A DNA stretch of 64,000 nucleotides from Homalodisca vitripennis. Taxonomy: Eukaryota > Arthropoda > Insecta > Hemiptera > Cicadellidae. The notes beneath the pieces are model-generated. The model made no database searches. It was not told the DNA's origin and saw nothing but the letters and a program-made list of their open reading frames with translations. Below, one piece after another: positions 30,280 to 64,000 of this stretch. Location of the stretch: positions 188,984,501-189,048,500 of the forward strand of contig NC_060210.1 of assembly GCF_021130785.1 (NCBI RefSeq). The letters run 5' to 3'. The translations under genes were made by a program, and so were the position numbers. Position 1 is the first letter of the stretch. Each line of letters begins with the position of its first letter.

Positions 30280-30428
30280 TTATTACTAAATAGTTTTTTT
30301 ATATCACAGTTGGTATTCCTTGTTTGTATTTTAAAAACATCGCGGTTGGTAAGAAATACTGAACAAATACAAATAGTAATTTTGATAACTATTAAATAAT
30401 TTTGAAAGAAAAGCCTATTATTAATCCA

Positions 30429-35400: not shown

Positions 35401-35505
35401 CCGATACTAACTCTGAGGAGATGACAAACCAGCTCCGTGTTAAAGCAGTTTTCTTGGAAAATCAACCGACTTTCTTTGGGAGAATAAGGATAAATGTCAT
35501 AACTG
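32453..35505. other. AT-rich DNA, few features
   Basis: An isolated B-box-like AGATTCGAACCCGAGG lies at 32541 (minus-strand tRNA T-arm sense) without a matching A box. A GC-richer patch at 32990-33140 has purine-rich GGGGGG runs and a short unassigned frame. From 34800 to 35270 the sequence is extremely AT-rich with simple TAAATAA-type stretches. No gene is supported. Confidence 0.35.
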
Positions 35506-35950
35506 GCCAGTTCTCTCTTCTTCCAGAACCCAGTCCATTGGCTATCTCCAACCGCTCATGAGCAAACTTGAAAACCCATAATCTATCATGTCAAACTCAA
35601 AGAACTAGAGAATGAATAGTGAGTGATTAAATATGTAAATTTGGATTAACATAATAAGTGACCAGTTCTCTCTTTCTCCAAACTCCAGGTCATGAGTTAT
35701 CTCCAATCACTCATGAGGAAACCTGAAACCCATGATATACCATGTCAAACTCCAGAAATTGTAAAATGAGCAGTGATTAAATATGTAAATTTGGATTAAC
35801 ATAATAAGTGACCAATTCTCTCTCCTCCAATTCCAAGGTCATGTGCTCTCCAATCTCTCATGAGAAATCCTGGAAAGCTATAATCTATCACGTCAAACTA
35901 AAAGAATTGCAGATTGAGTATTGATTAAAAATGTAAACGTAAATCCTTGT
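35506..35950. repeat. Three-copy tandem repeat, ~150 bp
   Basis: CCAGTTCTCTC at about 35507 and 35662, and CCAATTCTCTC at 35812, start successive copies. Shared landmarks are CTCCAA, CTCATGAG, TATC(A)..GTCAAACT and AGTGATTAAATATGTAAA. Copies differ at about one base in seven. The frame at 35271-35561 enters the first copy and is not supported as a gene. Confidence 0.8.
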
Positions 35951-36920: not shown

Positions 36921-38235
36921 ACTAGTGATAATAAATGATAATCCACTCCAGTAAACTGATTTTTGAATTAATAATCCAGATGCTACGACTAAAAGAGTTT
37001 GAAATTAGAAACAATTCTCTAGAGGGGTATCTGAATTACATTTGGAGGCTTCAAAAATTTCAGAAACTCGTATTGGTCGAAAAATGGTCTAAAATAATCA
37101 TATTTATAGAATTTGCTCTGAACAGCTCTTAGGCATTATTCCCTTAAGAGCTTAGTCTAAATATAATAGGAATATTTAATGTTTCTAGGAAAATTTGAAT
37201 TATTTGGTACAACAAGAACATTTTGCAATACAAGTGATGAAATGTCAATAGTGTCTAAATGACAGAAAAATCAATTAATATAAAAAAAACTAAAAATTGA
37301 AGAAATTTTAAAATCTGTATTCAATTGTGTAGTTCTGTGAACACAATTGAATACAATCCTATTTCTATATAAACCTTAATCATTATTACGTCACTAGTGG
37401 TCTATACTCGTGATTAAAGATTTAGTTGGCAGAGATGATTACATGCTGGGCAAAGCAAAGATGCTGTTTTTCGTCAACCTTTCCGCAAGCTTATAAAAAC
37501 CTTTCAACAGTCGTCTTATTTATATCCCTCTATGTCAAAGTGACTTAATATGGCTCAGAAATTGCTAACCTCTCAAAGAATTTCACAATTTGGGCGGTTT
37601 TCAGCACACGATTGAGAGATTATTAAATTAAGTACGTTAATTCCTCAAGAATAACAGTAAAATACAACCATATAATAAAAGAAAGACATACAAATATTAA
37701 AATTGGTTTAAAAAAGAAAACCGAGCACTAAGTTTTAAGAATGTTCAAAAACTTTAAAGGTTACATGGAATTGTTTAGTTTTAATTTATGTAGGTACTTC
37801 AATTTAATTTCATTCATATTTTTCTCATTCATAAGTGTTGTTTTATGTTAAAACATATTATGAGTGTCCAGAATGCAGTATGATGAGATCTGATAAAAAA
37901 TGCATGTGGTCATGAAACTCCATTAATTGGCAAGGTGCACTCTGAATACTACCTTTCTCATACAAGGGATGTAACTCTCCACTGATCCTCCTACATTAAG
38001 GAGTGTAGTACCTCTAGTACTGCATGCATATGACGGTTTTAATGAAGGAACAGCACGGCATGCCTAAACAAAGAGGCCGCGCTTGTTACAGAAGTACTCT
38101 TACTTTTTCCATGAACTCGGTCTTCATTCACGATTTTTTTCTAGCAGTCTCATTTTGTATACCCAATGTATGGTTTTTTATACACCACCAAGCTAGCTAT
38201 AACTTGTCTTTTTATAATGTTACAGAAATTGTATT
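36921..38235. other. AT-rich intergenic DNA
   Basis: No supported feature. The 71-codon frame at 38024-38239 ends where the 158-bp array starts and has no domain. Confidence 0.35.
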
Positions 38236-38866
38236 ATGAAGGAGAGGCTGATCCTCTTTGAAGCCTTATTCAGTCTGACTTCATGGGCTTGAGGTCTGTG
38301 CGAAGATCTTATGGAACAGAATTAGGAGGGGATTCAATACAGTACAAGGTTGATGATATTGATAAAAAGTGTTTACAAACAGAATTTGAACCTATGAAGG
38401 AGAGGCTGATCCTCTTTGAAGCCTTATTCAGTCTGACTTCATGGGCTTGAGGTCTGTGCGAAGATCTTATGGAACAGAATTAGGAGGGGATTCAATACAG
38501 TACAAGGTTGATGATATTGATAAAAAGTGTTTACAAACAGAATTTGAACCTATGAAGGAGAGGCTGATCCTCTTTGAAGCCTTATTCAGTCTGACTTCAT
38601 GGGCCACTGGCCTGTGCGAAGATTTTATGGAACAGAATTAGGAGGGGATTCAATACAGTACAAGGTTGATGATATTGATAAAAAGTGTTTACAAACAGAA
38701 TTTGAACCTATGAAGGAGAGGCTGATCCTCTTTGAAGCCTTATTCCATCTGACTTCATGGGCTTGAGGCCTGTGCGAAGATCTTATGGAACAGAATTAAG
38801 AGGAGATTCGATACAGTACAAGGTTGATGATATTGATAAAAAGTGTTACAAACAGATTTTGAACCT
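38236..38866. repeat. Tandem array, 4 x 158 bp
   Basis: ATGAAGGAGAGGCTGATCCT starts at 38236, 38394, 38552 and 38710. The copies are almost identical. Each can be read as MKERLILFEALF...TSW followed by a different frame, because 158 is not a multiple of three and a TGA interrupts most copies. The unit could derive from an exon (frame 38441-38641 runs VDDIDKKCLQTEFEP into the next copy), but no family is recognised. Confidence 0.9.

Positions 38867-43920: not shown

Positions 43921-43975
<55 letters not shown>
43921..43975. repeat. (TA)n microsatellite
   Basis: An uninterrupted run of TA dinucleotides, about 55 bp, directly abuts the CTAG end of the reversed element. The overlapping frames on both strands reading (Ile-Tyr)n are artefacts. 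Confidence 0.95.
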
Positions 43976-43976
<1 letters not shown>

Positions 43977-44748
43977 TAGCGGACCCGGCGCGCTTCGCTG
44001 CGCATTTCAATAAGTTTCCCGCGGCTTCGCACGCAATTTCCCGTTGAAAACAGTACACTATATTCACTTATTCATTTTCTATCACATTCTAAACATTGCT
44101 GAGATAATTGATAGTCGTTCCTTCGTGAGCTTCTTGGGCGCATTATGAAGGTATGTACCACATTCCTGATACTTCTGTCAAAAAAAAACAACTAAGGTTG
44201 ATTTTATAACATTCTTTATATTTGTAGCCAACGTAAGATAGTAATTATGATATCTGCATTGCTCTTCTGATCAAGCATGAGCATGGTTTATATTAAATAA
44301 ATATTGCAGTTAAAGGTGAATTTTTACGTCAAATTTGAATTGTATTATCTGGATAGTAAAGTCTATGTTTAACAGTGATTGCAGAAACAGTTTAAACAAA
44401 ATTTGTCGTTTCTCTTAAGCTTACTCTATGCCTTAAAACTATAAGTGTAGTAATTAAATTATATATAAATATATTTTTTGTCGCATTATATATGTTTACA
44501 AAGAACAGCTGATTAAAAATTTGAAAAGACTCTTTCACTTAATAACATATGTTTGCTGCAATGCATTTCTTACGGGTATTTCTGTAACCAGTGGGGCGGA
44601 ATCGTGAATCGGGAAAGGGATAAAAAGTATCCTATAACCTTCTACAGATCAAGACGAACAAATTTAAAAAAAAATTAGGCGAATCCGTCCAGCCGTTTGT
44701 GAGTGATGCTGTTACACACGAACAGTTTCATTTTTATATAATAGATTA
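43976..44748 (-). mobile_element. CTAG-ended element, reversed copy
   Basis: On the minus strand it runs from TATATAAAAATGAAACTGTT (about 44740) to GCGCGCCGGGTCCGCTAG at 43976, then TA repeats. It matches 29352-30279 along most of its length (CCCACTGGTTACAGAAATAC, GCAGATATCATAATTACTAT, TTTCTATCACATTC and so on, in reverse). It lacks the ~180-bp inner segment of that copy. It sits in the spacer of the long inverted repeat and therefore inserted later. Confidence 0.7.
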
Positions 44749-45885
44749 TTTAACATTTTAAAATTCAATGTCATATTATACATTAATAATAACAATTCAA
44801 TAGTTTTATTATAACAATAATAACAGACAATACTTCTTAGAGTGGTTATATCTAGAATTTGCGCTTTCAACATTTTTTTATTAACAATATAAAACTATTA
44901 AAATAACGTTATAATGCCATTTAAATATTGGTATTAACAAAGTAACTAGAAGCCGAGTTTGAAAATGTTAAATTGTATTCTTTGAATCAAGCACAGGTGC
45001 CATATGCACACGCGCATGCATATTTCGAAATTCCCAAATACAAATTGTTTACTCATCTGGAATTCAAAAACAAATGTTACCTCATCTACTACATTGGTTA
45101 CTATAAGTATATTATTATTTATTGGGAACAAATAACCAAATGAGGGCAGATGCAAGAAAAGGATGTTGGTGACAATAAAAATCAAATTTAACCACATATT
45201 GTTGGAATGTTTGCAGAGCGGAAAATAAAATATCATTAATAATCGAGTAAAGCTCAAAGGCTGTAATCAATTATCATATCTGAGCGGTTTTCTGGAAATA
45301 ATACCTGACATAAATAACCGCCCAGAGCTAGAGGAGTATCGGGTGGAATGGAAATGCTCCATAAACGCGATGTCTCCTGTCTACATCCGCCGTAAACTTT
45401 CATCCTTATGTCCTTGGCCTCGTGTAATGACGTCATCAATTATAGCTGTCTACTTAGGAATGGCCAGTCACTGAACTGTTAATATAGACTTGTTTAACCT
45501 CATCTTAGTTAATTTCGACCCAACCCCTTCACTATTTTAATCATGTTCAAACCGGTCAAAATCCGTTTTATGGTCCTTAATCTTAAACTTTTCTGTACAC
45601 AAAATATAACTATCTAAAACAAGAATCGGTTTTATGTTGTTATCAATGGTGCTATCAAATTGTCTTATCGCTTTGAAGAAAACAGGCGGGCAGATGGACT
45701 TGGAACTCTAAATTGGCAAGTTTTATCTATAAAATACAACTAACCGCTGGAGTTTTGTAATATTTCATAGCTCTCCTGACAAAGCGGACACTGATAAATG
45801 GGGCTTTCTGAGAAGAGTTTCAGATAAGCGAGAAGAATCTGGGCCAGAGAGACATTTGTAAACATCTCAGGAAGGAGAGAGACAC

Positions 45886-46940
45886 CCGGAAGGAAAAGGT
45901 CCTGCACAATCTCCTAAGCTAACACAAGCATGTATGAATAGTGCTTTTTAGAAATCACTCCTAAGAAAGTTACAAAGTTTGCAATCAAATTATTTTCATG
46001 GTAAATTCTTATTTGTGCTTTCTTATTACGTTACAGTGTTAGAACAGCTTTTAAGAACACACTTCCATTTTATGCAGATATGATACTTGAAATCTTAAAA
46101 GAAAGCTGTGGTTAAAAAGTTGTGATTTATCAATAAGAGGAATATATAGTATTAATCTACATAATACACAAGTAGGATAGGCTGTCTGAGAAATATGTGA
46201 TTCAATTCAGTGTGCACACGTTAATTCTGATTAGTAGGCTACACTAAATACATTAAATGTATAGTTTAAAATAGGAAGGTATTATCCTAAACTGAAGTTT
46301 AATTGGTTGATTAGGATGCTTCATCTGATATATCTTTTCATGTATTGCATGTATGCAAGTATAACACTTAGCTATAATATAATCTTAAGGTTATTTTAAA
46401 ATACAACCTGATATCTCTCTTATTATATAGTACGTACCACCTTGGCTTGTACGTACTCTATAATTGGCAATGTCTAGGATCTTGTACTTTTTCCAAAGAG
46501 CGTATCTGAAATACCCACTCTGCTCTGAAACTGTACATCACGATAACTCATTAGGCATTGCCATTAAAATTACTATGGATGTTATTGCTCCTTTAACTTT
46601 AATACTTTACTATTATACTAATATAGTAACTTTTTATCATTCAGTATTTTTTTTATAACGTTACAGTAATAAAAATACAATTATTATATCTAACTTTGAA
46701 AAATTTGAATACTTTAAATTTTAGCAGTAACACTCAATGTAATTTTGTTTAATTTTGGGGATTTTCACATTAACGTACTAAACTACACCCCCTCTCAACC
46801 CAGTGGTTGCACACCAGGTTGGTTTACTACTGCTGGTTCATACCTTCTAGTTTAACCCACACTGTGTCACAGCAAAAACCTGTGTCACTTAAATCTGGGT
46901 AACATTATGAATGTCCAGGAGTGGCACATCACTAACCGCA
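45886..46940. other. AT-rich intergenic DNA
   Basis: No supported feature. The 64-codon frame at 46464 has no domain. Confidence 0.4.
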
Positions 46941-48000
46941 AATATCGAGATTCTGGAGCATAAGGGTAATTCGATAGGTCTAGTCTACTGCAGGAGATGA
47001 CTGTTGCCAGTTGGTGGGGTTCGTTCCCTAAGAGCCAAAGGTTCTTGCTAGCCTAGACATAGGGGTGTGCCTACCTCCTGGCTGCTTTGACTGGAGAGGC
47101 TGGATCAGAGGTGGCGTCCTCTTCTTCCGAGGGGATTGGTGTCCTAAATTCTTCCACGCGGATCTTGACAGATGACAGATGATGACCCCATCCCCAACTT
47201 TATATATCCAGAATATCCTGCAATTCCGGAAACAACGCAAAGGTCCTTTTAGAACTATGTGCAGTTTGTAAGCTTCTTGTCCTAATATAACAAAAAAGAT
47301 GTTAAGGGTGCTCCTAAACTCGAGGTAAAATTTAAAGATATAATTTTAGGTTCTCTTCCTGGCACTTCCCCAAGAGCCTGTGTCTACAATAAGAACACTC
47401 TAAATGATGTATAGATCACTGGAAAAATATGTTTTATTTAAAGTACATAGATATATTTTCGTAAAGTTCTACGGTAGTATATTTTGTATTAATTTAGTTG
47501 AGGATATTAGCAACAAAACCTTTTGTTACTTGAGCACATGGAAACAGTCTAATCAGAGTAGCAACTTCTGCATATTTCATTTCTAGTCAAAAATAAACAG
47601 AACATAAGCTATAAATTAACGCAAGCATCACGATGTAGGCTGTATAAAATATGAACCTTACAGACGTACTTGATTACGAAATCCCACAGTACCACTGCAC
47701 AGAGTACCGTACAGGTAACACAGCGTGGGCCTCTCGAGATTCGATTCGCAGCTTCCAAGTTTGGCACCTGAGAGCAGCCTTGGGGAGAGCGGGGGTTGTG
47801 AGGGGCGGAAGGGGGATTTATGTGACCAGTTAGGAGGTAAGCCGTGGTATATCGTATGGGAGCGAGAGAGAGGGTGAGTACCCACCCCCAACTCCCACCC
47901 TCCCACAGATATCTGCAACGCTACCTATCGGTCTGCTCTAGCCCTACTTTACCAAAGGTAGCCCTAATGATCTCGGTGAACAATGCTTGGGGCTGAACCG
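46941..48000. repeat. Duplicated block Y, copy 1
   Basis: AATATCGAGATTCTGGAGCA marks the left edge. The block is nearly identical (about 97-99% by eye) to 62936-64000. It contains a GC-richer part (47010-47240) with a minus-strand frame, and a G-rich part (47690-47990) with an intron-like AGGAG/GTAAGCC...CCTCCCACAG (about 73 bp). No family is recognised. Short frames inside are shared by both copies simply because the DNA is duplicated. Confidence 0.95.
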
Positions 48001-48314
48001 AACCTATAGAGTTTTATCAAGAGTAAACAGACATTAGTAACAAATTAAGTTTATACGAATATCATATTAATTAACGTTTAAAATAATAAGAAAACATTCA
48101 TATGATGCAGTACTAATATGGAACTATGTAACATAGAGACATATTTAAGAAATTATGGTTTTGAAAGTTAGTGCATTAGACATGTATAGCTAATTAAGCT
48201 CTCAAAAAATAAAACAATTTCTATTTATTCCAAATAGGATATATTTATGGCTAAATAACTTTTGGCAGATAAAAAACATTATTGTGATTGAAAGTTTTAC
48301 AATATATTTTAACC
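48001..48314. other. AT-rich spacer between blocks Y and X
   Basis: This ~310-bp segment has no counterpart elsewhere in the window. In the circular-permutation model it contains the point where the circle was opened. Confidence 0.5.
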
Positions 48315-48353
48315 CAAATAATATTATAAATGCGAAAGTGCCTTTGTTTTTCT

Positions 48354-48387
<34 letters not shown>

Positions 48388-48704
48388 TGCAAACTATTCA
48401 ACCGATTCTACTGAAAGTTTTCATCGACATTCTTAGAATCCCTGGGATCCCTGGGATGAATATAGGCCTGTTTTCCTTCGAAAATCTCTCCGGGCCATGC
48501 CCCACTGATCTCTTAAGCAGTAAAACATCACATCTTGGACTCTAAAATTAATATGAACTGAAAAGAGCCTGTTAAATGTAATAAACTGTTCTGTGTAAAC
48601 ATTCTATTATGAAAGCACGACCATATGTTTAATTAATGTAAACACTATTTTGTTTTAATTGTAATATTTATGTTTCATAATCAAAATTTAACTGACACTA
48701 AACT

Positions 48705-49325
48705 CCTGTTCTCAGTCCTAAGACGTATGTTTATTGTCTTCATCGTGACAACAAGGCAAACTCAACTATGGCACTGGAAATATCGTAGAACTAAGAAAAT
48801 TGCCAGAGACTTAAGTAGGCCCTTTTTGACAGAAGTAGTTTTCTGAGATCTACATCTCTATACATTTTCTTGGTCGGAACAATACAGTAAACTCAAAACT
48901 GACACTACAAACACGTTAGACCGATAATTTAAAAGGCCTGAAGTAGACACCTCTTGGTTTTTGGCCGAAGTAGGCTTCTCAGTTCTAAGTGTTTAAATAT
49001 ATTCTATTTATAAAGACAACGTGTAAAATTCCAATATGGCATTGCAAATATCTTAGACCGGAAGTCAACGCTTTGACAGGAGTAGGGTTCTTAGATCTAC
49101 ACACATCCACACACCTGTATATGTATAAACATTTTGTTGATCGAGTAAATAAGGCAAATTCAACATAGCACTGCAAATACATTAGGCAAGAGGCGAATTA
49201 AAAAACCCGGAAGTAGACACTTTTTACTGAAGTAGACTTCTCAGTTGTAAGTAGGTTAATATATTTCTTCGTCGGGACAACGATGCAAACTCAACTATGG
49301 CGCTAGAAATATATTATACCAGAAG
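48705..49325. repeat. Degenerate ~130-bp tandem repeats
   Basis: About five diverged units share CAGAAGTAG, TTCTCAG, a TATATATTTTCTTCGTCGGG-like stretch, ACAA..GGCAAACTCAA, TATGGCACTGG and AAATAT. A related single unit is in the CTAG-ended element at about 29878-29975, linking block X to that element family. Confidence 0.6.
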
Positions 49326-50061
49326 TATCTAATATTATTTTATGTATTTTTCTTTTGCTGTGAGCGTGAGGTTACTTCACTCCTGAAGGCAACTTTGACG
49401 CATTGAATGTAGTTTTGATGGTTCCCTAAGCGAAGATTCTTGTTAATACTGAACATTTTGTACCGCCTGCGAAGTGAGCTATAGCAATTTCTGGATTCAC
49501 AATACTAGAAACTCTTGCCGATTTGACAGAAGTTAATAGGATGTTCCATAAACTACTAACTTCTCCAATTACTATCGACGACCTAGTTATATTACTACAA
49601 CCTTGATTTGACAGGTCCAACCCAGTTCTTGGTTGACAATATTGTTTCATAAGATAACGCGGATGTCATTTCACAAAGACCTTGGATGTACTCATCTATA
49701 ATCAGTTTTATTGTTGTACTTTAAAAAGTAAACTTGACCTTTTCAAAAGGCAACAACTCTTAGGAACCATCACGTAAAAGGACATAAAGCATAAAATCTA
49801 AACTCATAAAAAAACTTGTCTTATGTCTTTATCATCATTACCTTAGGTTTCTCAACAGTGTAGGCTACTAAGACGCAAGACTGCGCTTAAATGAAATTTT
49901 TTCATCGACTTATGACAATGACTTTTCTCTCTATTATTTTTCATTTTAATCTATAAAAAAGTCACATGTAAAATCTGGTATGATTGTACACCTTTTGTTT
50001 TCAAATTTATTTACTTTGCTGTTTTCTCATTACCATCACGGCTATTCATAAGACTAATATC

Positions 50062-50230
50062 AAATATTGGCTAACGCTCAGCCAAATCACAAGTGGTGCA
50101 ACTCAGTGTTGCCTATATAGAAATGAAGCTTCATATAACATTCCAAGTCTATATCGTGCGTACAGAGATAGTCAGATGCGAATTATTTCACGCCCCTTGA
50201 GTGATAGAATTCACTCAAGCTCGACCAAAT
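50062..50230 (+). repeat. GCTCAGCC-ended family copy in block X (copy 1)
   Basis: TTGGCTAACGCTCAGCCAAA at 50067 forms a short self-complementary start. It is followed by AGAAATGAAGCTTCATATAA and CAAGTCTATATCGTGCG, ending CTTGAGTGATAGAATTCACT. The equivalent copy in the second X block is at 61440-61612. Confidence 0.6.
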
Positions 50231-51571
50231 AATTTAATATTCTGTTTGCTAACTTCATATGTGGATACGCCTCCGAAATACGGATAAAGCAAAAAGGGGA
50301 ATTTATTTAGGGAATTCAACAAAATATGAAGATGGTAATACCATTAATTTAAAAGAAAAGAAGTAGAATAAACAAATAAGGTGACAATGTTCAATAACCA
50401 CCGCTTAAAACCCTGATCCATTTTTATTTCTAAAATAGAAGGGGGATGCCTTAATTTCCACCCCATATAGTATATTACGAGGATGAAAGCTGGATGTTAA
50501 TTAACTTGAACCCTGTACGAGCCACAAAAGAAACAAAGAGACTAACGACTATGTCTGGAGCAAGTGACAAACAATGCCATGTGCAGCTCAGTGTTAGGGC
50601 TGGTTCTTGTAGTGAAAAACTGTTCTTGCCTCCAGTAACGCATCTCAGGCGACACTTTCACTGATGAAAACAGACACCTTGTCTGTGTTTTAATGCTCCA
50701 AATGGAATGGCAAAAATTATATAACGGAATCAGTTGAAGTGGTCTTTCGACGAACAGTTTATTTTAAACCGTCATGAAATCCCATGGAGTGACATGCACC
50801 GTTATAGAACTCGATGTTGCCCATAGAGAAAAGGATCTATCTCCATGGAAATAATTGTATAGCTTAGTTCGTTCTCGAGACGTCGTGAGGAATTTTTTCC
50901 AGCGCCTCGACTGATAGGCTTCGCTAACGCTCAGCCAGTGAACCGGATTAAGGTACAATAGGTGTATTTAAAGTTTAAAACTGTTGAAAATTTACGTTAA
51001 AATTCCGAGTATAGTTAATAATAATTAAAAATTGAAATTTGTATCTCGAATACTAATATAATACATATTAAGTTTTGAAACTTTAAAATAAAATTAATTC
51101 TTTTATGTCTGATACGTCATTAAAAATCAGAACATGCCATTCATAAGTAACATTGCTAACTTTCTAAAAATGTTAGTGTTTGAGCTTTTTTGCACAATGG
51201 TGGTTATGAATATTGAAGAGAAACGTACCATACTTCTTATATTCTTGCAATCCTTCATTATATGAGGTCCAACACATGACTGATAAAAAAGATAACAGCA
51301 AATTATAACTTATAGTATGAATAAAAAAAGCAATAAAGAGTATGCTACAAAAAATAAAAAAAGGTACACTACATGACGTAGAAAAAACAAAAACTATTTA
51401 TATTTTAATACAATTAGTGCAGAGGTAGAAAATTGTACTGGGAGAATTCAGAAAGTTCAAAATACTCAAATCATGTATATCACTCGTATATTACAAGAAT
51501 ATTCATTCAAAGATTTGGAAAACTTAAAAAATACTTTAAACAGATTGCTAGATAGTTTAAAAATACTAATA

Positions 51572-52479
51572 CAACAAAATTAAATCTCGATTAAATCAGA
51601 TTAATATGATACATAAACTTAGACTGTACAAATACATGTTACCTTTTGAAGAGGTTTTGATAGTATAAAACATAAAAATCAAATTGAATTTCAAATTACA
51701 AGAGGACAACTATTGAAATTAAATTTATCTAAGGAAGTAAACTCGATACAGTTAAAGAATTTTGACATACAGTAAAAACACAACTATTTATTTCAACTTT
51801 CTTATTTTATTCTTTTACTACACATAGTGTAAAAGTCTTATCCTTATTTGTAGAATTTCCTAAAATCAATTAATTTCAAGATGATTTCGATTTTTTCTAA
51901 AATACAGACAATAAATGATGCAAAACGTATTAGAATTAGAGCATATTAACTCAAGAATATTATACCTGGTACCTAGCAAGAATATTAACGCGCTCGCTTA
52001 GAGTTTGGTATGGTCTTAATTGCTTCATAACCATTAAGACCTATACTTCATCATGTCGAGGAAAGGAATGGAACTGGAATTCGTGCGGCAATTAGAATTA
52101 GTGTGCTTAGTGTTCTGTTAGCAACGAATAAGCCATGATGTCAATACTCATTCATCATTATTGAATTGTTTTCTCGTTATTTTGTTTATTAAATTTATAC
52201 AAATGTAAATACGGGTACAAAGCACACAATGTGTTCAGTATTAAGGCACTTTTTCAGTTTATAACATTTTTAGAACTAATTTCTGTTGTAACTGTTTGAA
52301 TACTTAACTTTATTGCCATTACTAATTCAGCTTTTATTCATAGGTCTTTAATTCTGTACAGTATTCTAAAAGTGTATTGTACTTTATGACTAATATTTAT
52401 TGATTTAATAACTACTCTTTGTAGATCATCTTATGCTTTAATACGATTGTATTTATCGTTCTCTCAGGCTAGGCAGAAA
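51572..52479. other. AT-rich intergenic DNA
   Basis: No supported feature. Confidence 0.4.
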
Positions 52480-52590
52480 TTATTATTTATTACCCTGCAA
52501 AAATACAGAGGCCGTACCGGGATTCGAACCCGAGTGAGTTCCCGTGATGATAAGCCGACACGCTAACCACTCAGCTACCAGAAACAGCGA
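52480..52590 (-). mobile_element. tRNA-derived SINE (A and B boxes intact)
   Basis: On the minus strand the A box TAGCTGAGTGG (52567-52577) and B box GGTTCGAATCC (52520-52530) match the RNA polymerase III consensus exactly, 36 bp apart. The T-arm can pair, but the expected 7-bp acceptor stem does not form and the anticodon arm is irregular. A nonhomologous body (TTTTTGCAGGGTAATAAATA) follows. This is best read as a SINE head or tRNA pseudogene rather than a working tRNA. Confidence 0.75.
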
Positions 52591-53744
52591 GTGACATGTT
52601 CTTAGACTGATTAAGTTAGCTTTTATTTTAGGCATTCATTGAATAAATAGCCTCGGGACAAATTCAGACTCTTTTGGATCATATTTTATTATTTATTCAC
52701 ACAGATTGTACATACTCGTATAATTTAAAAGTACTCATTGAACAGAGTCTTTTTGTTTTTAGATGTAACACATCAATATAAGTAAAACAAAGTATATTAA
52801 TTTCTATTTCAAAGGTTTCAACTTTTCAAATACAATATTATATCATTCTGAAAGAAGTTTCAATGTTATGTGTTAATGTGAAAGAACGTTTGATTAAAAG
52901 TTTACCTGTGGAAAACATATTTATATGCTAAGACAGAGCAATCCACAACAATTACTTTTTTTGTAAGAAAGTTTTTTGACGCTAATCTATTATGAATTCT
53001 TTATTTTGCAATAATATATTGGACTTTGCAAAATGAAATAGTAGAACTGGAAAACGTGGCCAAATAATTTCCAAAATATTGCTGTTTTGTTGCATTTTTT
53101 CAATTATTGGAAAAAAGTCATTATTATTATGAATTAAATTTAAACAGGAACCTTATAAGTAACATAAGTAAAACTAAATACAAAAGTGATTCTACTATTA
53201 TTTATAGATGAGTCAGAGTTGTATTAAAATATAAATGTCTAGGCATTCGATTAAAATAATAAGCCTTTAAATAATAGTATGAATGTTGTTTTACTTATCT
53301 GAACTATTCACTAAGTGGTTAAAATAGTACAATCAATTAGTAAATGTAAAATTATTCAAACGACCGGTATCGGTTTTCACGAAACCACAGAAGTTAATAT
53401 ACCGTTCCCAGCTCTAAACCACGGACTTTGGAACACATGGTGAAGGAGCAGGATCACATCCCTGCTCTTTTATTACATTTACCCTCTCTGAATACCGATT
53501 GCGTACATATTTACCCAATACAAGAGATGCTGAATGTAACTCTACAGTTCGAGTCTTCATATTTACATAACGACTGTTTTAATTGTAGCTGGTTTAATCG
53601 CTGCAGAATTATTTCCTGTAAACTTAATCAAATTTATATATCCGGAGAGTAGTGAAAAGATGGATGAACTGCTGTTTGTAAAATTGTGGTACATGTCGCT
53701 TTTGAAATTTTTATTAAAAGTTTTTGGTTCGAAATATAGTGTGT
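52591..53744. other. AT-rich intergenic DNA
   Basis: The 74-codon frame at 53428-53652 has no recognised domain. No feature is supported. Confidence 0.35.
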
Positions 53745-53814
53745 CCACAAATTAATGTCACACATTTAAAGAACTTTATTTACAAATGTATATACAGCAC
53801 AAGAATTATATTAA

Positions 53815-54080
53815 AATGGGATTAAAGAGTACTTTAAACAGTTTTACGGCAGTTATTCTGACCTCTACATGAGCACCATGAATCACCCTGAAGATGTCCA
53901 AGCGAATTTTGATTATGACCTCTGGGGTAACTGATTTAGTTGGAGCTCTAATTAATTTTTTCCTTTAAGAGTTCAACATAAGAACATTATTTACTATGTA
54001 TATTTCCAGAAAAGTGAAAGATAGCCTCATCACTAAAAACACTGTGTTGTATAAAATGTTGATGCAGTCAAAAACACTGT
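53815..54080 (-). pseudogene. Relic of a mariner-type (DDE_3) transposase C-terminus
   Basis: On the minus strand, SDEAIFHFSGNIHSK is encoded at about 54034-53990. It corresponds to the block around the second catalytic Asp of Tc1/mariner-like transposases and ends in a stop. Further on, in another frame, VTPEVIIKIRLDIFRVIHGA (53931-53870) matches the usual C-terminal section. The relation is by motif recognition only. GTGTCCACAAATTAATGTCA at 53741 may be part of a terminal repeat. It is inactive: frameshifted, with stops and truncated. Confidence 0.65.
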
Positions 54081-54271
54081 CAACCCTATATCGTTGTACC
54101 TTGGCTTAGCGTTTGTTCTTGGAATATAGATAATAAGTTCATTGCACATGTATAACTGTACATTTTACTTCTCTTTGTTTAAAGTTTGTTATTTCCGATG
54201 TAAGGTTTGAAAGTATGATAGAATTTCGAACATCTGGTATCGTTGTGGTGTCGCAGAAAAGTGACTCTGAC

Positions 54272-54303
54272 TTTCGAGGATTGAAGTCTATCCTCTTTTT
54301 CAG
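54272..54303 (-). ncRNA. Degenerate hammerhead-like motif
   Basis: On the minus strand: CTGAAAA, AGAGGAT, an 8-nt loop, ATCCTC, then GAAAG. Stem II is perfect (GAGGAT/ATCCTC), but one core G is A. Flanking DNA (54180-54340) resembles the 60915-61197 insertion of block X copy 2. Confidence 0.4.
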
Positions 54304-54340
54304 GTGTAAAACATCCACTAAAAATGACATAATAAACTAA

Positions 54341-55244
54341 AAAAATGTGGCAATAGATTGCCACTCAAAGTTATAATAATCAAGTGATATCTGATTAACA
54401 ACATAAGTCCAGATTAGAGAGAATGAACCCAAGCGATGTCACTGGACAGGAGCCAAAACACATCACATCCGAACTAACAAAGGTGCAGTAATAACGCGGA
54501 ACTCAATGTCGGCATTTCCTGTGATATCGCGGCGCGTTATCTGAAACAAAGGGGACAGGAAGGTAATCTTTGGAATGGGGACCATCGTACATATTGCTTA
54601 TGGGGAAGGGGTTACATATTACTTGCGGGCATATTATTTGCTTATCTAGTTTTGGAGAAAACTATGAATTTCTAATCAAACCGATTTATCTTGAATTTGA
54701 AATACGTGGTATTTAATAATCTTTTGAAATAAAGTAAAAGAGTCGCAATTATATAATATTTCTTGTTTCTAATGCTAGAAATTGTCCAATTGTTAAAACT
54801 ATAATTTAAGCTAATGGAGATAGTTTTCAGATGACATTTCTAGTTTTAATTCTTGAAAAAACTTTGGTCACGTAAAATTAATATTGAGAATAGGAAATCA
54901 GGGAATTTTGTATCCTTCGAGTAGTAGACGTTTGAAGGGGAACCTTATAGAATGTCTTATTACTAGGCTCTATGATAAACGTTTGAAGTTATAGTATCAT
55001 ATTTTTATAGTTTCTACATAAAAAAACAACTGGAGAGGGTGTCTTTCTTCAAAATTGTAAAAAAATTTAATTTTCTTAAGATAAAATATTTTAATACATT
55101 TAATTTCCCTAAATTATATTTAATTTGAAAACGTATAAACGATTCACCTCGTGAAGTGTTGAAAACTGTTGTATGCTTCTTCTGTGTCCAGGCATATTAT
55201 CTTAATAGGGTATATTTTAAATTTAAACAATTTTTCTCGGCCAA
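54341..55244. other. Intergenic DNA
   Basis: No supported feature. Confidence 0.4.
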
Positions 55245-56955
55245 TATATTTTTGCACCTCCTTAAACAAGACATGTAATGTTTTAGTTCATTTATACATA
55301 CACAGCCACCTACATCACAGTAACTATTCCTGTTTTGTTTTATTAATCTTTACATATAATTATCAATCAATTTAATATATGTATAACATATATATATATA
55401 ACAGTTATAGCTTTAAAGATAATATTTTGAAAACAGCGCTAATTGAAAATGTATTGTTTCACATTGTTATTGTTTTGGCAACACTGATTTAACACAGTGT
55501 TCTCATGTACCTTGTTCTGAGTCTGTAGGAAAGTGAATGTAACGATGCACTGTAGTGCGGTGGAGGGGTCAGTTATCGAGGAACTGTAGTAGACAAGTCC
55601 GAGTGGCACAAGGCAGTCTGCTCAAATATTTAGACGCACTGCCCCCACAAGGAGGAGAGGTGGAGTTGTTTAGAACTATAGTGTAGAAACTAATTTTGGC
55701 AGCACTGCTTGAACACATTAGTTCCTCATCTTCCAATGACCCTGAGTACGTATCTAGATGTAAGGATGAAAGCGGTGCATATTAATTAACATGTACTGGA
55801 TTGGAAGTAGGGAAATCTTAACGATACCGAGAACTCTACTGCAATATTTAAAGGCTTACCCCAACTACGGAGGCTGAGATCTTTATTCCTTTCTGTGGAA
55901 ACTTATCAGAGGAGCTTTACTTAAATACGGCACTCTGCACTTCAATGTGCGTTTCAGCAGTATATTAATGAGTGTTTTATATTTATATTTATTCACCATA
56001 CTAATTGTTCTATTCCCATCTTTCTTATTATTCGTTACATGTCTTATATATAACTCAAGCGCTTACTACATACGATTATAAATGGTAGAGATTTTACCTG
56101 TAAACGGTGGTACCAGTTTCCACCTCCTTCAACAAGACATGTAATGTTTTAGTTTATTTATACATACACAGCCACCTACATCACAGTAACTATTCCTGTG
56201 TTGTTTTATTAATCTTTACATATAATTATCACTCAATTTAATATCTATTATATGTTACAGCTTTAAAGGTATTACTTTGAATACAGCATGTAAAATGCCT
56301 TCTTGGCATTGTTTCACATTGTTATGGTTTGGCAACACTGCATGAACACAACTCGTCAGCCACCACACACTGAGTATGTAGGAAAGTGAATGTAACGATG
56401 CACTGTAGTGCGGTGGAGAGGTCAGTTATCAAGGAACTGTAGTAGACAAGTCCGAGTGACACAAGGCAGTCTGCTCAAATATTTAGACTCACTGCCCCCA
56501 AAAGGAGGAGAGGTAGAGTTGTTTGTTCTGTTCTTTAGAAACTAATTTTGGTAACACTGCTTGTACACATTAGTTCGCTCATCTTCCAATGGCCTGAGTA
56601 CGTATCCAAATGAAAGGATGAAAGCAGTGCAGATGAATTAACATGTATTAGAGATCTTAACGATACCGAGAACTCTACTGTAATAATTTAAAGGCTTACC
56701 CCGACTACAGGGGCTAAGAACTTTATTCTTTTCTGTGGAAACTTATCTGAGGAGCTTTACTTAAATGCGGCACTTTGCACTTCAATGATCATTTTCAGCT
56801 TTATAGTAATGAGTATTTTATCTTTTATTTATGCATCATACTATTTGTTTTATTCGCAACCTTTTTACCACCAATTACATAAACTACAATTCAATCGCTT
56901 ACTGTGTAAGATGTATGGTAGAGGTTTTATATTTAAACGGTAGCTTTGATGTTAC
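55245..56955. repeat. Tandem duplication, 2 x ~866 bp
   Basis: ACAAGACATGTAATGTTTTA occurs at 55266 and 56132, and the copies stay collinear to TTTA(C/T)...GTAAACGGT near 56110 and AAACGGTAG near 56945. Landmarks such as CGATGCACTGTAGTGCGGTG, GAACTGTAGTAGACAAGTCC and GCAGTCTGCTCAAATATTTA are conserved. AT-rich parts have drifted and carry indels. The GC-richer centre is the best conserved. No frame spans it. Confidence 0.9.
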
Positions 56956-57351
56956 ATAATGAATTACAGTATTATGATGTTGTATGAACATCACAGAGAG
57001 ATGTTGATGTAGCACTTTGACTGTAAAGGTAAGCAATTGAATCGTTTATTGCAGAAACCACATAACCAACATTTTCTTAATTTTAGGGAAATAAAAAACA
57101 CATAATTTCTAAAAAAGTAACAAACATTTCAATTTAGTAAGTTTTCATTGTTAACTACCAAGGTATTCAAAGTCGTGGATGTCGATCTTAAGTATCAGGG
57201 TTGATATGCCACTTAAAAAACTTTTTAATTGTTTGTATGGTGTTTCTGCAATAAAAGCTGTTTTTGTTAATCAAATTACAATTTGGTTCCGAATTTTCTG
57301 ACAGATTTGCAGGTTTGGGCACAATGGAAAACAAAAATATGGTTAAGACAC

Positions 57352-57357
57352 TTTATT
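57352..57357 (-). terminator. Poly(A) signal of the 57.4-58.9 kb gene
   Basis: AATAAA reads on the minus strand, about 62 bases past the stop codon of the terminal exon, an ordinary distance for a cleavage signal. It supports this as the true 3' end. Confidence 0.6.
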
Positions 57358-57419
57358 CAAAGATAGAACTCATTAACTAGTATAAAAACATGAAAATATA
57401 TACATTTTTCGGACTTAAC

Positions 57420-58896
57420 CTACTCGTCATCTTCATTTGACCTCTCAATCACTTCGGCATCTGTTGTTGGCCATTGTAACAAAGCATTGTAGAAGTCTTC
57501 ATACCCTGTGGTATAGTTGGTCAACTTTGTGATGTCATTGAGCTTTGCCTTTTGGATAGGTACCTGTAACCAAGAAATCAACTTGTTGATTCAGCAAAAA
57601 TAAGTTGTGACTGGCTAGCATATTTTTTCAAAAATTGTACACGCTGTTGATATTATTTTTATTAACTAATAACATTATGTTCATTATTATTGTAAAACAA
57701 AAATAACTTCATTGTTTTCTTTTAATTGTTCCGAATAAAATTGTAGGAATTAAAAAAAAGTCTTACCTGTCCTTGAGGGTAGGCAACTGCAGTTGGTAGC
57801 TCCGGTGGTTGGTTACATTTCAGGAGGGTGAATGTGGACTCACGTAAGCCATCATTGAAATCCCTCACTACTACTTTCCCTTGCGAATGTGAGGAGAAAT
57901 GGAACTGTCTGTAAGTGGATATTTTAAATGGTTCTTTGTCCTTCTTCGGAATGGCTCTTCCTGCTGATTCATCGGAGGCTGAAACTGTCTTGTAATAGTA
58001 TGCATGCCACCAGCTCTTAAAGTTTAATATTTCATGGGTTTTCACTTCATGGACTGTTAATCGACTAGAATTACTGGCCCTCAGTATCAGTTCAATGTAC
58101 TCCTGTGGTGTATAAATCCGGTCAGCTTCTCGTATTAGGCGCTTTATACAGCGAAATTCCCTATCACAGGGGCAAAAAGAATGCCCTCGCACTGGGAAGT
58201 AGTATGTAATAGTCTTAAAATGTGAATTGTCACACAGAGCCATTAAGAATCTTATCATGGTGTGATTCTTATTTTGTCCGAAAGGGCCATCACTAAACCG
58301 TACCAATTTCTTTATTGTATCAGGGACTTCAGTCTTCATGTAGTCAAAAAGAAAAGAACACACCTCATCTGGTGATTTATTTCCTACACCCTCATGGTAT
58401 ACATAAATTTTTGCCTTACTTGTCTTTAGGTTGTGGATACAAAAGCAGTTCACCCACAATTGCCGCATATAGAAGACTTCCTGGACAGGAATGTGCGGCA
58501 AAGGTAGATTTTGCATGAAGTCGAAACATATTGCCAGAGTTTCGTCATCTTTGTCATTACCGGTACTGTAATCTTGCAATTTCTTGAAATACTTCTTAGC
58601 CCTGTTTTTATGAACCATCATCTCTGCCACAGCAGTACGTTTGGCACTTTCACACAGAAGAGGGTCTCTTAGCTTACTAGATAGACTTTCACAAGTGCAA
58701 CAAACATCCACTTGAGGGCGACCAAATCTGTAGTCAAAATTCTCTTTGAAATATGTGTAGTAAAAGTTATACTTAACTACATTGGTTAGATCTGGATGTT
58801 TATCAAGAAACATTTCATACATTTTCTTAACAGTCAGTCTGGCGTCCAAATATTTTTTTGGCTTTCCTCCATTTACAATTATTGTAAAGGCCAGTG
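57420..58896 (-). CDS. RNase H-fold/DUF7869-like protein, 3' two exons
   Basis: Two exons are supported: 58896-57767 and 57563-57420, joined in phase 0 across a 203-bp intron with donor CAG/GTAAG and acceptor TTACAG. The product ends PQGQ-VPIQKAK...SNEDDE-stop. In the long frame (residue 1 counted from 58927) I see Cys76, Cys79 and Cys92 (possible zinc site), CFDFMQNLPLPH (Asp136), SDGPFGQNKN (Asp213) and GHSFCPCDREF (Asp255), spaced like an acidic RNase H triad. The order matches uncharacterised DUF7869-type insect proteins, probably transposase-derived. That assignment is recognition plus inference. The 5' part is missing. The frame opens without ATG (TTG at 58927), and two acceptors fit (TTTATTTAG before 58896, CCTTTTAG before 58933). 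It is intact, unlike every other coding relic here. No partner gene is nearby. Confidence 0.8.
57564..57766 (-). other. Intron (GT-AG, 203 bp)
   Basis: The donor CAG/GTAAGACTTTTTTT begins at 57766. The acceptor TCTTGGTTACAG ends at 57564. Removing it keeps the frame open and adds the last 47 residues. Reading through instead would add only 14 low-complexity residues, so splicing is strongly preferred. Confidence 0.8.
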
Positions 58897-58933
58897 CTAA
58901 ATAAAGGGATAGGTATAAACATCTCAAGTTATA

Positions 58934-59262
58934 CTAAAAGGAAGATTTTAGTAAAAGGTTTATTTACCACTATCAGAAAGAATTAATTTGTAAGTTTTTC
59001 AAGGTCGATAATAAAGTAGGTATGTTTCTGTGAATTTCATAAAAGACGCATAAAACAAAAGTTCCTCAAAATTATTACATACTACATCAATAAAAACGGT
59101 ACGTGAAGAAATTTAATTTGGCACACATTTAATCAAGGTAGGTGTGTGGGGAAGTCTTATAATCGTTATACTCATATGGGGACATGTGGCCCTCATTAAC
59201 CCAATTTAATTTCTTTAAATTAATTTGACTAAATCAATTAATTATACAGTCCGTAAAACCAC
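58934..59262. other. Presumed intron/upstream DNA of the gene
   Basis: AT-rich. It holds the candidate 3' splice site CTAAAATCTTCCTTTTAG on the minus strand (58934-58951). No upstream coding exon is recognisable in the window. Confidence 0.35.
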
Positions 59263-59295
59263 GTTTCGAGTTTTGCTATCTGATCTCTTCCTCAG
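59263..59295 (-). ncRNA. Hammerhead-ribozyme-core-like motif
   Basis: On the minus strand: CTGAGGA, AGAG...CTC (weak stem II), GAAACGTGG. Close in text to the motif at 24807-24839 (AGAGATCAGAT shared), so the same element family. Stem II has decayed here. Confidence 0.4.
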
Positions 59296-60914
59296 GTGAA
59301 TACCTAACCTACCACATAACTACAACTACGTTACAAACATCAGGGTGTTGTGTCCGGTTCGTGACATATGTGTGTCACAGCGCCCTGCTATGACTTGATT
59401 ATCCTAAGTTGTAGTTAAATTGTACCTAATTCGCAAAATCCTAATAATATTATAAATGTGAGTCCTTTTTTTTGCTTTCACGCGTAAACTAGTCAGCCGA
59501 TTGTACCAAAATGTTACATTGACATTCTTACAGTTCCTGGGATGAATAAAGGCCTACTTTAATTTTCAAAAATCCCTCCGGATTACGCCCCACTGGTCTT
59601 AAAAGTATCAAAAATCCCATCTTGGTCTCTAAAGTTGTGAAACATTAAGTAAAATAGTCTGATAAATGTAATTAACTCTTTTTGAACATTGTTTTATATG
59701 TTCGGAACACAACTATACGTTTAATTAATTTAACCACTATTTCGTTTTAAAATTTAACTGGCACTAAACTCCTGTTCTCAGTCCTAAGATGTATGTATAT
59801 TGTCTTCATCGTGACAACAAGGCAAACTTAACTATGGCACTGGAAATGTCTTGGAACAAAAACGATTGCAAGATACGTAGACATTTTTGACAGAAGTAAT
59901 TTTCTGATATCTACATCTGTATATATTTTCTTCGTCAGGACAATACAGTAAACTCAAATTTGACACAACAAACACATTAGATCGTTAATTTAAACGATCT
60001 GAAGTAGACACGCACAATCATATTATAAAAAAAAAACAAAAAAAAACTATAAGGTTTATCCGAGGAAACACGATGAAAAATATGATTTACAACGCACTTA
60101 AAAATAATAAATATATTTACAAAGTACTCCGCATAAAATACACAGTTATTCATGCTCTATAAGTTCACCGTGGTAATCTTACAACAAAAACTAGTCCTAG
60201 AAATATAAAAATCTTTTATTAATTAGGTCTATAGGAGATTAAATATGTTTTCAGGTTAATGTGGATTTAAATTTTTCTTGTAAATAGATTATGAATCAGA
60301 TGTCCATGTGGAAAGAGAGATGCTCATGGACTTGCAATTAATCATGAGCAACTCAGCTTTTACCTGTGTATCCTGCAGAATCTCCGAGCGAAAGAAAATT
60401 ATTGTCTCGACCAAGTAAACTAGCAGCTGTCAGCTTTCCAGCTCCTCGAAGGATTGCATTCTCCTTTGAAGAAGCCGTTGTGGATTTATTATTTTTTTTC
60501 CTCTGATATTAACTGAGCGTGAGGTTACTTCATTGCGGAAAGTAAATTTGAGGCATTGAATGTAGCTTTTTTGGTTGCCTAAGTCAAGATTCTTGTTAAC
60601 ACTTGACATCTTGTATCGCCTGCGAAGTGAGCTATAATAGTTTCTGGATTTACAATTTCAGACCACCTACCATCAAACCGTTCTATTACCACAATCTTGA
60701 TTTGACAGGTCAGACCCAGTTCAGCCAGCATCTTGGATGACATTCTTGTGTCAGAAGATAACACGGAAGATCCATGGTCTAACAAAGTCCTTTGATGCAT
60801 TACTCGTCTATAATCCGTTTAATAGTTGTACTTTAAAAAGTAAACTATACCTTTTAAAAAGGCAATCACTCCTTAGGAACCATCTCGTAAAAGACATAAA
60901 GCATAAAATCTTAA

Positions 60915-61197
60915 ATCTTAAAAAAAACATTTTTGCTTAAACAAATTGGTGACTGATCCATTCATGGTTGGACTTTATATAGTTTTTCAGGTATCACTTA
61001 ACGACTTTAACTTTGAATTGAAGTCCTTTGACACATTTTTTCAATGCTTTAAGTCTTTTTTCATCTGAAGAAAAGTGTAGATTTCAATCCTCGAAATGAA
61101 GTGTTATACTTTTTTCAAAGATATAACGATGGCAAATTTCAACAATTCTATCTTTACAAGTTTAAAGTCTAGAAATTATTTTTTTTTCTCGAGATAT
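60915..61197 (+). mobile_element. Insertion in block X copy 2 with hammerhead-like motif
   Basis: This segment has no equivalent at the matching point of copy 1 (near 49808). It contains CTGAAGA (61065-61071) and CCTCGAAA (61089-61096) in hammerhead-like order with a poor stem. It resembles 54180-54340 in reverse. Probably a Penelope-like fragment inserted after duplication, or lost from copy 1. Confidence 0.5.
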
Positions 61198-61439
61198 TTT
61201 GTCTTATGTCTTTGTCATAATTACCTTAGGTTTCTCAGCAGAGTAGGCTACAAAGACGCAAGAGTGCGCTTAAATCAAATTTTTTCACCGACGTATGACA
61301 ATGACTTTTCTCTCTATTATTTTTCATTTTAATCTATAAAAAAGTCACATGTAAAATCTGGTATGATTGTACACCGTTTGTTTTCAAATTTATTTACTTT
61401 GCTGTTTTCTCATTACCATCACGGCTATTCATAAGACTA

Positions 61440-61612
61440 ATATCAAATATTGGCTAACGCTCAGCCAAATTCCATGTGGTGCAACTCAGTGTTGCCTATA
61501 TAGAAATGAAGCTTCATATAACATTCAAAGTCTATATCGTGCGTACAGGGATAGTCAGATGCGAATTATTTCACGCCCCTTGAGTGATAGAATTCACTCA
61601 AGCTCGACCAAA
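61440..61612 (+). repeat. GCTCAGCC-ended family copy in block X (copy 2)
   Basis: Nearly identical to 50062-50230, as expected from the larger duplication. It was therefore present before the duplication. Confidence 0.6.
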
Positions 61613-62935
61613 TAATTTAATATTCTGTTTGCTAACTTCATATGTGGATAAGCCTCCGAAATACGGATAAAGCAAGACGGGGATCTATTTAGGGACTTCT
61701 ACTAAATCTGAAGATGGTAATACCATTAATTTAAAAGAAAAGAAGTAGAATAAGGTGACAATGTTCAATAACCACCGCTTAAAACTCTGATCCATTTTTA
61801 TTTCTAAAATAGAAGGGGTGCCTTAATTTCCACCCCATATAGTATATTACGAGGAGGAAAGCTGGATGTTAATTAACTTGAAACCCTGTACGAGCCACAA
61901 AAGAAACAAAGAGACTAACGACTATGTCTGGAGCAAGTGACAAACAATGCCACGTGCTGCACAGTGTTAGGGCTGGTTCTTGTAGTGAACAACGGTTCTT
62001 GCCTCCAGTAACGCATCTCAGGCGACACTTTCACTGATGAAAACAGACACCTTGTCTGTGTTTTAATGCTCCAAATGGAATGGCAAAAATTATATAACGG
62101 AATCAGTTGAAGTGGTCTTTCGACGAACTGTTTATTTTAAACCGTCATGAAATCCCATGGAGTGACATGCACCGTTATAGAACTCGATGATGCCCATAGA
62201 GAAAAGGATTTATCTCCATGGAAATAATTTTAGAGCTTAGTTCGTTCTCGAGACGTGAGGAATTTTTTCCAGCGCCTCGACTGATAGGCTTCGCTAACGC
62301 TCAGCCAGTGAACCGGATTAAGGTGCAATAGGTGTATTTAAAGTTAAAACTGTTGAAAATTTACGTTAAAATTCCGAGTATAGTTAATAATAATTACAAA
62401 TTGAAATTTGTATCTCGAATACTAATATAATACATATTAAGTTTTGAAACTTTAAAATAAAATTAATTCTTTTATGTCTGATACGTCATAAAAAAGCAGA
62501 ACATGCTATTCATAATTAACATTGGTAACTTTCTAAAAATGTTAGTGTTTGAGCTTTTTTTCACATGGTGGTTATGAATATTGAAGAGAAACGTACCATA
62601 CTTCTTATATTCTTGCAATCCTTCATTATATGAGGTCCAACACATGACTGATAAAAAAGATAACAGCAAATTAGAACTTATAGTATGAATAAAAAAAAGC
62701 AATAAAGAGTATGCTACAAAAAATAAAAAAATGTACACTACATGACGTAGAAAAAACAAAAACTATTTATATTTAATACAATTAGTGCAGAGGTAGAAAA
62801 TTGTACTGGGAGAATTAAGAAAGTTTAAAATACTCAAATCATGTATATCACTCGTATATCACAAGAATATTCATTCAAAGATTTGGAAAACTTAAATAAT
62901 ACTTTAAACAGATTGCTAGATAGTTTAAAAATACT

Positions 62936-64000
62936 AATATCGAGATTCTGGAGCATAAGGGTAATTCGATAGGTCTAGTCTACTGCAGGAGATGACTGTT
63001 GCAGTTGGTGGGGTTCGTTCCCTGAGAGCCAAAGGTTCTTGCTAGCCTAGACATAGGGGTGTGCCTACCTCCTGGCTGCTTTGACTGGAGAGGCTGGATC
63101 AGAGGTGGCGTCCTCTTCTTCGGAGGGAATTGGTGTCCTAAATTCTTCCACGTGGATCTTGACAGATGACAGATGATGACCCCACCCCCAACTTTATATA
63201 TCCAGAATATCCTGCAATTCCGGAAACAACGCAAAGGTCCTTTTAGAACTATGTGCAGTTTGTAAGCTTCTTGTCCCAATATAACAAAAAAGATGTTAAG
63301 GGTGCTCCTTAACTCGAGGTAAAATTTAAAGATATAATTTTAGGTTCTCTTCCTGGCACTTCTCCAAGAGCCTGTGTCTACAGTAAGAACACTCTAAATT
63401 TAATGATGTATAGATCACTGGAAAAATATGTTTTATTTAAAGTACATAGATATATTTTCGTAACGTTCTACGGTAGTATATTTTGTATTCATTTAGTTGA
63501 GGATATTAGCAACAAAACCTTTTGTAACTTGAACACATGGAAACAGTCTAATCAGAGTAGCAACTTCTGCATATTTCATTTCTAGTCAAAAATAAACAGA
63601 ACATAACCTATAAATTAACGCAAGCATCACGATGTAGGCTGTATAAAATATGAACCTTATAGATGTACTTAATTACGAAATCCCACAGTACCACTGCACA
63701 GAGTACCGTACAGGTAACACAGCGTGGGCCTCTCGAGATTCGATTCGCAGCTTCCAAGTTTGGCACCTGAGAGCAGCCTTGGGGAGAGCGGGGGTTGTGA
63801 GGGGCGGAAGGGGGATTTATGTGACCAGTTAGGAGGTAAGCCGTGGTATATCGTATGGGAGCGAGAGAGAGGGTGAGTACCCACCCCAACTCCCACCCTC
63901 CCACAGATATCTGCAACGCTACCTATCGGTCTGCTCTAGCCCTACTTTACCAAAGGTAGCCCTAATGATCTCGGTGAACAATGCTTGGGGCTGAACCGAA
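62936..64000. repeat. Duplicated block Y, copy 2 (runs off the window)
   Basis: Matches 46941-48000 with only scattered single-base differences. The match continues to the last base of the window, so the true right end is not seen. Confidence 0.95.

Follow-up and report, generated by a model that had tools for sequence, protein, structure and literature searches.

The sequence examined here, referred to as the window, is a stretch of 64,000 nucleotides from Homalodisca vitripennis (RefSeq assembly GCF_021130785.1, contig NC_060210.1, positions 188,984,501 to 189,048,500, forward strand). In its right part, two blocks of sequence named Y and X are each present twice and their order is swapped between the copies, with Y preceding X in copy 1 and X running directly into Y in copy 2. 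Both copies were found to lie within a tandem array of about 97 kb (40.6 to ~137 kb in window coordinates), and the window ends inside this array. An in-place tandem duplication closed at a shared AATA, together with an exchange with a unit of a second type and one deletion, probably accounts for copy 2. The permuted order is most simply the look of a tandem-duplication seam beside a single unduplicated copy; such swapping is the ordinary case, and a circle is not needed.

The sequence analysed (194 kb) consisted of the window, 120 kb to its right and 10 kb to its left, and was aligned to itself; coordinates that exceed 64000 or are negative continue the numbering of the window. Additionally, an X probe (50000-51000) was compared with the 2.3-Gb genome. 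As 40 of 1521 first-look candidates were scored, the number of long copies is given as at least eight. These matches, the window's two included, are all on the same strand and form one cluster within 83 kb (C4 189034500-189117497), and the remaining scored matches in the genome are short, old relatives. The parts of the window used below were as follows.

44735-46940, forward strand: P, the left neighbour of Y in unit A, of type 1 (alignments of unit A to A' and A'').
46941-48002, forward strand: Y of unit A, its first 4 bases being the AATA overlap (97.75% identical to 62936-64000; P-Y junction at three places in the array).
48003-48314, forward strand: G, which continues Y and recurs in copy 2 beyond 64000 (within the 96.7% alignment of 46941-49582 to 62936-65540).
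48315-49911, forward strand: L1, the form taken by an old repeat in type-1 units (separate pieces 74.8-84.6% identical to L2 of unit B).
49912-51571, forward strand: X' of unit A, ending in AATA (40 mismatches in 1643 columns to unit B; at least eight long genomic copies, itself included).
51572-56108, forward strand: Q, the right neighbour of X' in unit A (X-Q string at six places in the array).
56117-59440, forward strand: R, the left part of unit B (56117-60011 versus 89844-93802, 94.1%; 56328-60011 versus 126106-129835, 94.1%).
57722-58933, reverse strand: an open frame of 403 amino acids in unit B with a DUF7869 domain (Pfam PF25273, E 2.3e-9).
59441-61288, forward strand: L2, the type-2 version of the old repeat, in the left part of unit B (of 63 diagnostic sites, 59 type 2, 2 type 1 and 2 neither).
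61289-61343, forward strand: the interval of exchange between type 2 and type 1 (best split of 206 diagnostic sites).
61343-62939, forward strand: X' of unit B, type 1 (of 143 diagnostic sites, 135 type 1, 4 type 2 and 4 neither).
62936-62939, forward strand: the AATA overlap at the X-Y seam (one occurrence of the seam string on the two strands of the 194 kb, with up to 6 edits allowed).
62940-64000, forward strand: Y of unit B, which runs on to 65540, after which come the end of X', Q and, at 66134-68267, a minisatellite (self-alignment).

At least eight units were recognised, ordered A-B-C-A'-B'-C'-A''-B'' with a period near 35 kb (34.6 kb from A to A' and 35.7 kb from A' to A''), and the starts of successive X matches are 11.4, 13.8, 9.4, 11.4, 9.8, 14.5 and 11.9 kb apart. 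In type-1 units (A) the order is P-Y-G-L1-X-Q, and in type-2 units, which lack Y, it is R-L2-X-Q; unit C ends inside X at 76020. Unit A is 90.8% identical to A' (44735-56108 versus 79452-90673) and 91.5% to A'' (44735-55718 versus 115103-126129), and A' is 94.6% identical to A''. Units at the A position are clearly closer to one another across successive repeats than to their neighbours. Units of the B and C positions are not separable by identity (C-C' 93.9%, C-B'' 94.3%, C'-B'' 93.8%, B'-B'' 90.7%); the stretch with the DUF7869 frame is common to B, B' and B'' and is skipped by the alignments in C and C'. Copy 1 is unit A, which is intact, and copy 2 is unit B, which is a mosaic.

An earlier note on the window had described Y and X as a permuted duplication. 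For Y this was confirmed (46941-48002 versus 62936-64000, 97.75% identity over 1067 columns). The right part of X is likewise duplicated (49816-51571 versus 61199-62939, 96.1% over 1758 columns); the description of X as a single block of 3.3 kb did not hold, its left part being an old, diverged repeat. AATA is present, as the note had stated, at 46941-46944, 51568-51571 and 62936-62939, and X of copy 2 abuts Y directly. The 4-base overlap at this seam is only mildly unusual, since overlaps of at least 4 bases occurred at 2.3% of random junctions of the window (200,000 draws). Overlaps of 4 bases or more are frequent in overlap-guided joining. Over 49912-51571 and Y the copies are ~98% identical, with 40 mismatches in 1643 ungapped columns for X' (49912-51571 versus 61295-62939).

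The copies of the left part of X (48315 to about 49911) are old relatives. With gaps counted, identity over their three longest unique pieces is 74.8%, 84.6% and 79.8%, L1 and L2 within the long piece are about 73-78% identical, and 48951-49332 and 60012-60486 (382 and 475 bases) gave no match better than E 0.19. Over 49586-51571 the mismatch rate falls at 49911 from 13.0% to 2.4% (twice the log-likelihood difference 55.5; maximum of 500 permutations 19.7), a jump that is incompatible with X having been duplicated whole in one event. Taken alone, 49816-51571 gave a borderline value of 10.6 for the same change point, the permutations having a 95% point of 10.0 and a maximum of 14.9.

The 206 diagnostic sites of unit B place a switch at 61288-61343, from type 2 on the left to type 1 on the right (counts listed above), and 150-column windows from 60514 to 61319 match C at 93-99% and the units B', C' and B'' at 94-99%. 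Unit B' has a switch of its own at 96683-96718 (50690-50725 of A), with 109 of 112 sites type 2 to the left and 114 of 117 type 1 to the right. Because the switches in B and B' are separate, exchange between the types took place more than once.

The end of Y at 64000 proved to be merely the edge of the window, as the alignment carries on beyond it. Copy 2 continues as Y-G-L1 to 65540 (46941-49582 versus 62936-65540, 96.7%), with four gap openings through 48003-49582; in unit A this interval is 97.8% identical to A' and 97.2% to A''. Copy 2 then skips 1.58 kb (the counterpart of 49583-51163), resumes at 51164 of A and passes via the X end into Q, the right flank of copy 1. The jump at 65540 is a 1.58-kb deletion, with an overlap of ~1 base, and the whole of copy 2 reads R-L2-X-[Y-G-L1-X end]-Q. 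Over the first 500 columns to the right of 65540, 481 of 491 sites match A, 474 of 491 match the hybrid B', 383 of 469 match B'' and 364 of 464 match C'; this sequence is type 1.

These results bear directly on the mechanism that the earlier note had put forward, in which a 4631-bp piece was excised, closed at AATA into a circle and reinserted after being opened near 48.0-48.3 kb. They do not support it: past 64000, copy 2 crosses 48003-48314 within one alignment and is continuous through 48003-49582, so that no opening is seen there. A circle in some form would still be compatible with the order of the parts and the AATA overlap, and with an identity jump at 49911 that lies within an old repeat shared by both unit types. 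However, a circle inserted at 49911 of a type-2 unit should leave an X end and Q of type 2 on the right, where type 1 was observed, and no opening point was found in the donor with its two sides flanking the inserted copy. When the window was considered by itself, a circle that recombined with the resident type-2 repeat near 49911 had been the best model; it predicted G, L and then a right flank of the resident type, and was rejected on the type-1 sequence there. Since B' also matches at 474 of 491 sites, the right-flank test does not bear on a circle that entered a hybrid unit. A comparison of empty sites by joining the flanks leaned slightly to X-Q continuity, with a signal too weak to count as evidence. 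Altogether, we regard reinsertion of such a circle at copy 2 as improbable.

Junction strings were sought with up to 6 edits on both strands of the 194 kb, and the count for X-Y holds for these 194 kb only. The X-Y seam was found once, X-Q six times (51555, 65930, 86201, 97559, 121862 and 133578, the last with 5 substitutions) and P-Y three times in the array; a fourth P-Y-like match at 167411, with 6 substitutions, is outside it. None of the three strings was found on the opposite strand. Old repeats outside the array (167329-167607 and -8280 to -7996; 67% and 62% identical) span the P-Y boundary, which is therefore ancestral. Given that X-Q and P-Y recur and that old repeats run across P-Y, these two junctions are the old arrangement and X-Y is derived. 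The alternative that the earlier note had itself named, a tandem array that lost pieces, came close to the mark, with at least eight same-strand X copies in the cluster, a single X-Y seam and recurrent normal neighbours.

The ends of the 4.6-kb piece resemble those of a Helitron, and copy 2 could on this account be a head-to-tail pair of a Helitron-like mobile element. In unit A, TC at 46945 follows an A and CTAA at 51566 precedes a T, in agreement with the 5' TC, 3' CTRR and A/T insertion of such elements, and a 7-bp stem lies just upstream of CTAA (a stem of at least 7 bp was present at 11 of 487 CTRR-T sites of the window, 2.3%). The fold is weak, however, with 30 of 200 shuffles equally good, and the seam is imprecise, having an extra TA between CTAA and TC at 62938-62939. 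Furthermore, P-Y and X-Q are ordinary internal boundaries elsewhere, older repeats cross P-Y, and A' and A'' have CATGTCAAG in place of the AATATCGAG of A. No Pfam match to Rep/helicase, domains to be expected in autonomous members only, was obtained in six frames of 48315-51571 or in two frames of Y (105 and 104 amino acids), and the ends of the piece showed no convincing terminal or inverted repeats. On the evidence of the array, the Helitron-like end bases are most likely a coincidence, and we give the mobile-element explanation next to no weight. A possible link of the AATATTATAAATG motif to RTE was dropped, as the main text of PMC2887409 did not contain it.

The kinship of the X ends was used to place the seam within the history of unit B. 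Its two X ends differ at 2 of 407 sites, and there are 5 to 15 differences between either of them and the X ends of A, A', A'' and B'. Separate units are nearly as close (A'-A'' 3, A-A'' 4 and A-A' 5 of ~407), so the difference count alone is not decisive and the sister relation leans more on shared states: five states are common to both X ends of unit B and absent from A, A', A'' and B', and a tree of eight copies joins the two ends with 97% ultrafast bootstrap. The duplicated piece most likely already carried the X variant of unit B beside Y-G-L1, which would place it in a type-1 context at the time of duplication. Tandem duplication in place, with AATA as the join, would produce this state in a single step.

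Assembly is difficult in repeats like these, which counts in favour of the seam being an assembly error. Nevertheless, unit B has private variants on both sides of the seam, with the five states common to both X ends, its own 71-copy minisatellite and a single clean exchange point, none of which would be expected from a random mis-join. An assembly error is accordingly considered very improbable.

In the sequence of events that we infer for the favoured tandem duplication, a stretch of ~4.6 kb from Y to the X end would have been duplicated in tandem within a type-1 unit, with AATA as the point where the X end met the start of Y. Everything to the left of ~61.3 kb may then have been replaced by R-L2 through unequal crossover, or conversion, involving a type-2 unit, and a 1.58-kb deletion would have taken the counterpart of 49583-51163 out of the second copy. 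Several points weigh against this history. The first copy of Y-G-L1 that it leads one to expect is not seen, and its loss in the exchange must be assumed. The X ends differ at 2 sites, only slightly fewer than the minimum between units, and gene conversion could also explain their likeness. The share of transitions among differences is low in X (11 of 40) relative to Y (11 of 17; Fisher p 0.016), which is unexplained. Finally, the structure of the array is that of the assembled sequence.

Two other histories were weighed against the same X-end data. In the first, another type-1 unit once followed B, and a deletion from Q to P, with AATA as the overlap, brought X of one unit up against Y of the following unit. 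This would yield the X-Y seam in one event from P-Y and X-Q, both normal neighbours in the array, and X ends of separate units as close as 3 of ~407 mean that 2 differences would fit two former units. The five private shared states and the 97% bootstrap of the X ends of B are, however, unexpected for separate units without conversion, and an extra type-1 unit is required in the first A-B-C set; we consider this deletion unlikely. In the second, a 4.6-kb Y-to-X circle closed at AATA left a type-1 unit and re-entered a neighbouring unit with the same X variant. As the X ends are sisters, the source of the circle would need to be the type-1 ancestor of unit B itself, and duplication in place is simpler, leaving this variant with only a small probability. 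If it were true, circles released from tandem arrays would return to them, and libraries of circles could be searched for the exact seam as a marker.

Three known systems were used for comparison. Yeast CUP1 arrays are described as founded by non-homologous tandem duplication and altered by unequal crossover (PMC4232551). The present array is similar in its tandem copies, non-homologous seam and later unequal exchange within the array, and differs from that account in having no recognised selected gene, two diverged unit types and a three-unit period of ~35 kb. Circle-mediated duplications with a changed block order are described in human DNA (PMC7450558, PMC7188851); the swapped order and the short overlap at the closing point are shared with them, whereas the present copies lie together in a tandem array in which no opening point was seen, and next to the seam unit lies a sister X end. 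Helitron circles join their ends precisely as described in PMC4778049; in comparison with these head-to-tail circles, the TC and CTRR-like end bases are alike, probably by chance, while the present seam is imprecise and its ends are ordinary internal sequence in other units.

Swapped blocks with a short shared overlap can thus mimic a reinserted circle when 64 kb are viewed, and ~75 kb of additional sequence revealed a tandem-array mosaic. With its old unit types, the exchanges in B and B' and one recent duplication, the array offers a readable order of events for the study of unequal exchange in a large genome.

The DUF7869 frame of unit B has named relatives from a moth, a stick insect, beetles and an aphid, the closest relatives listed being mostly ~600 amino acids long, and its counterparts in B' (91782-92679) and B'' (127516-128718) are broken by stops or frame breaks. 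No domain above the cut-off was found for L and X in six frames of 48315-51571; a match to a plant-virus model (E 0.0038) fell below the cut-off and was taken as chance. A search for other Y copies by way of a chance frame of 119 amino acids gave two candidates, none of which passed, and each of three pattern scans of viral and prokaryote collections returned 0 copies. Rfam gave 0 matches in the window.

Several other repeats were recorded. The Q part of unit B holds a 30-bp minisatellite of 71 copies with 99% match (66134-68267); its unit is present (up to 4 edits) once each in A, A', B' and A'', so the expansion occurred in unit B. In unit C', frames resembling a non-long-terminal-repeat retrotransposon (109055-111794; endonuclease E 3.6e-10, reverse transcriptase E 2.5e-34) interrupt stretches that are contiguous in other units. 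At C2:234973419-234975963, part of X (about 68-152 of the probe) is repeated every ~163 bp, apparently as a small satellite derived from the same old repeat. Two recent repeat copies form an inverted pair at 29485-30280 and 43975-44621, with indels and, in one piece, identity at 397 of 404 ungapped sites; the second sits in a stretch of unit A (43947-44734) that is skipped by the A' alignment. Seven tandem-repeat stretches with a score of at least 300 were present in the 64-kb window, at 5031-5280 (137 bp), 6932-8803 (76 bp), 11212-13412 (24 bp), 16100-16722 (52 bp), 27608-28350 (370 bp), 35499-35937 (148 bp) and 38235-38866 (158 bp). An RNase H domain at 20889-21569 on the forward strand (E 1.5e-6) is probably part of a decayed retrotransposon.

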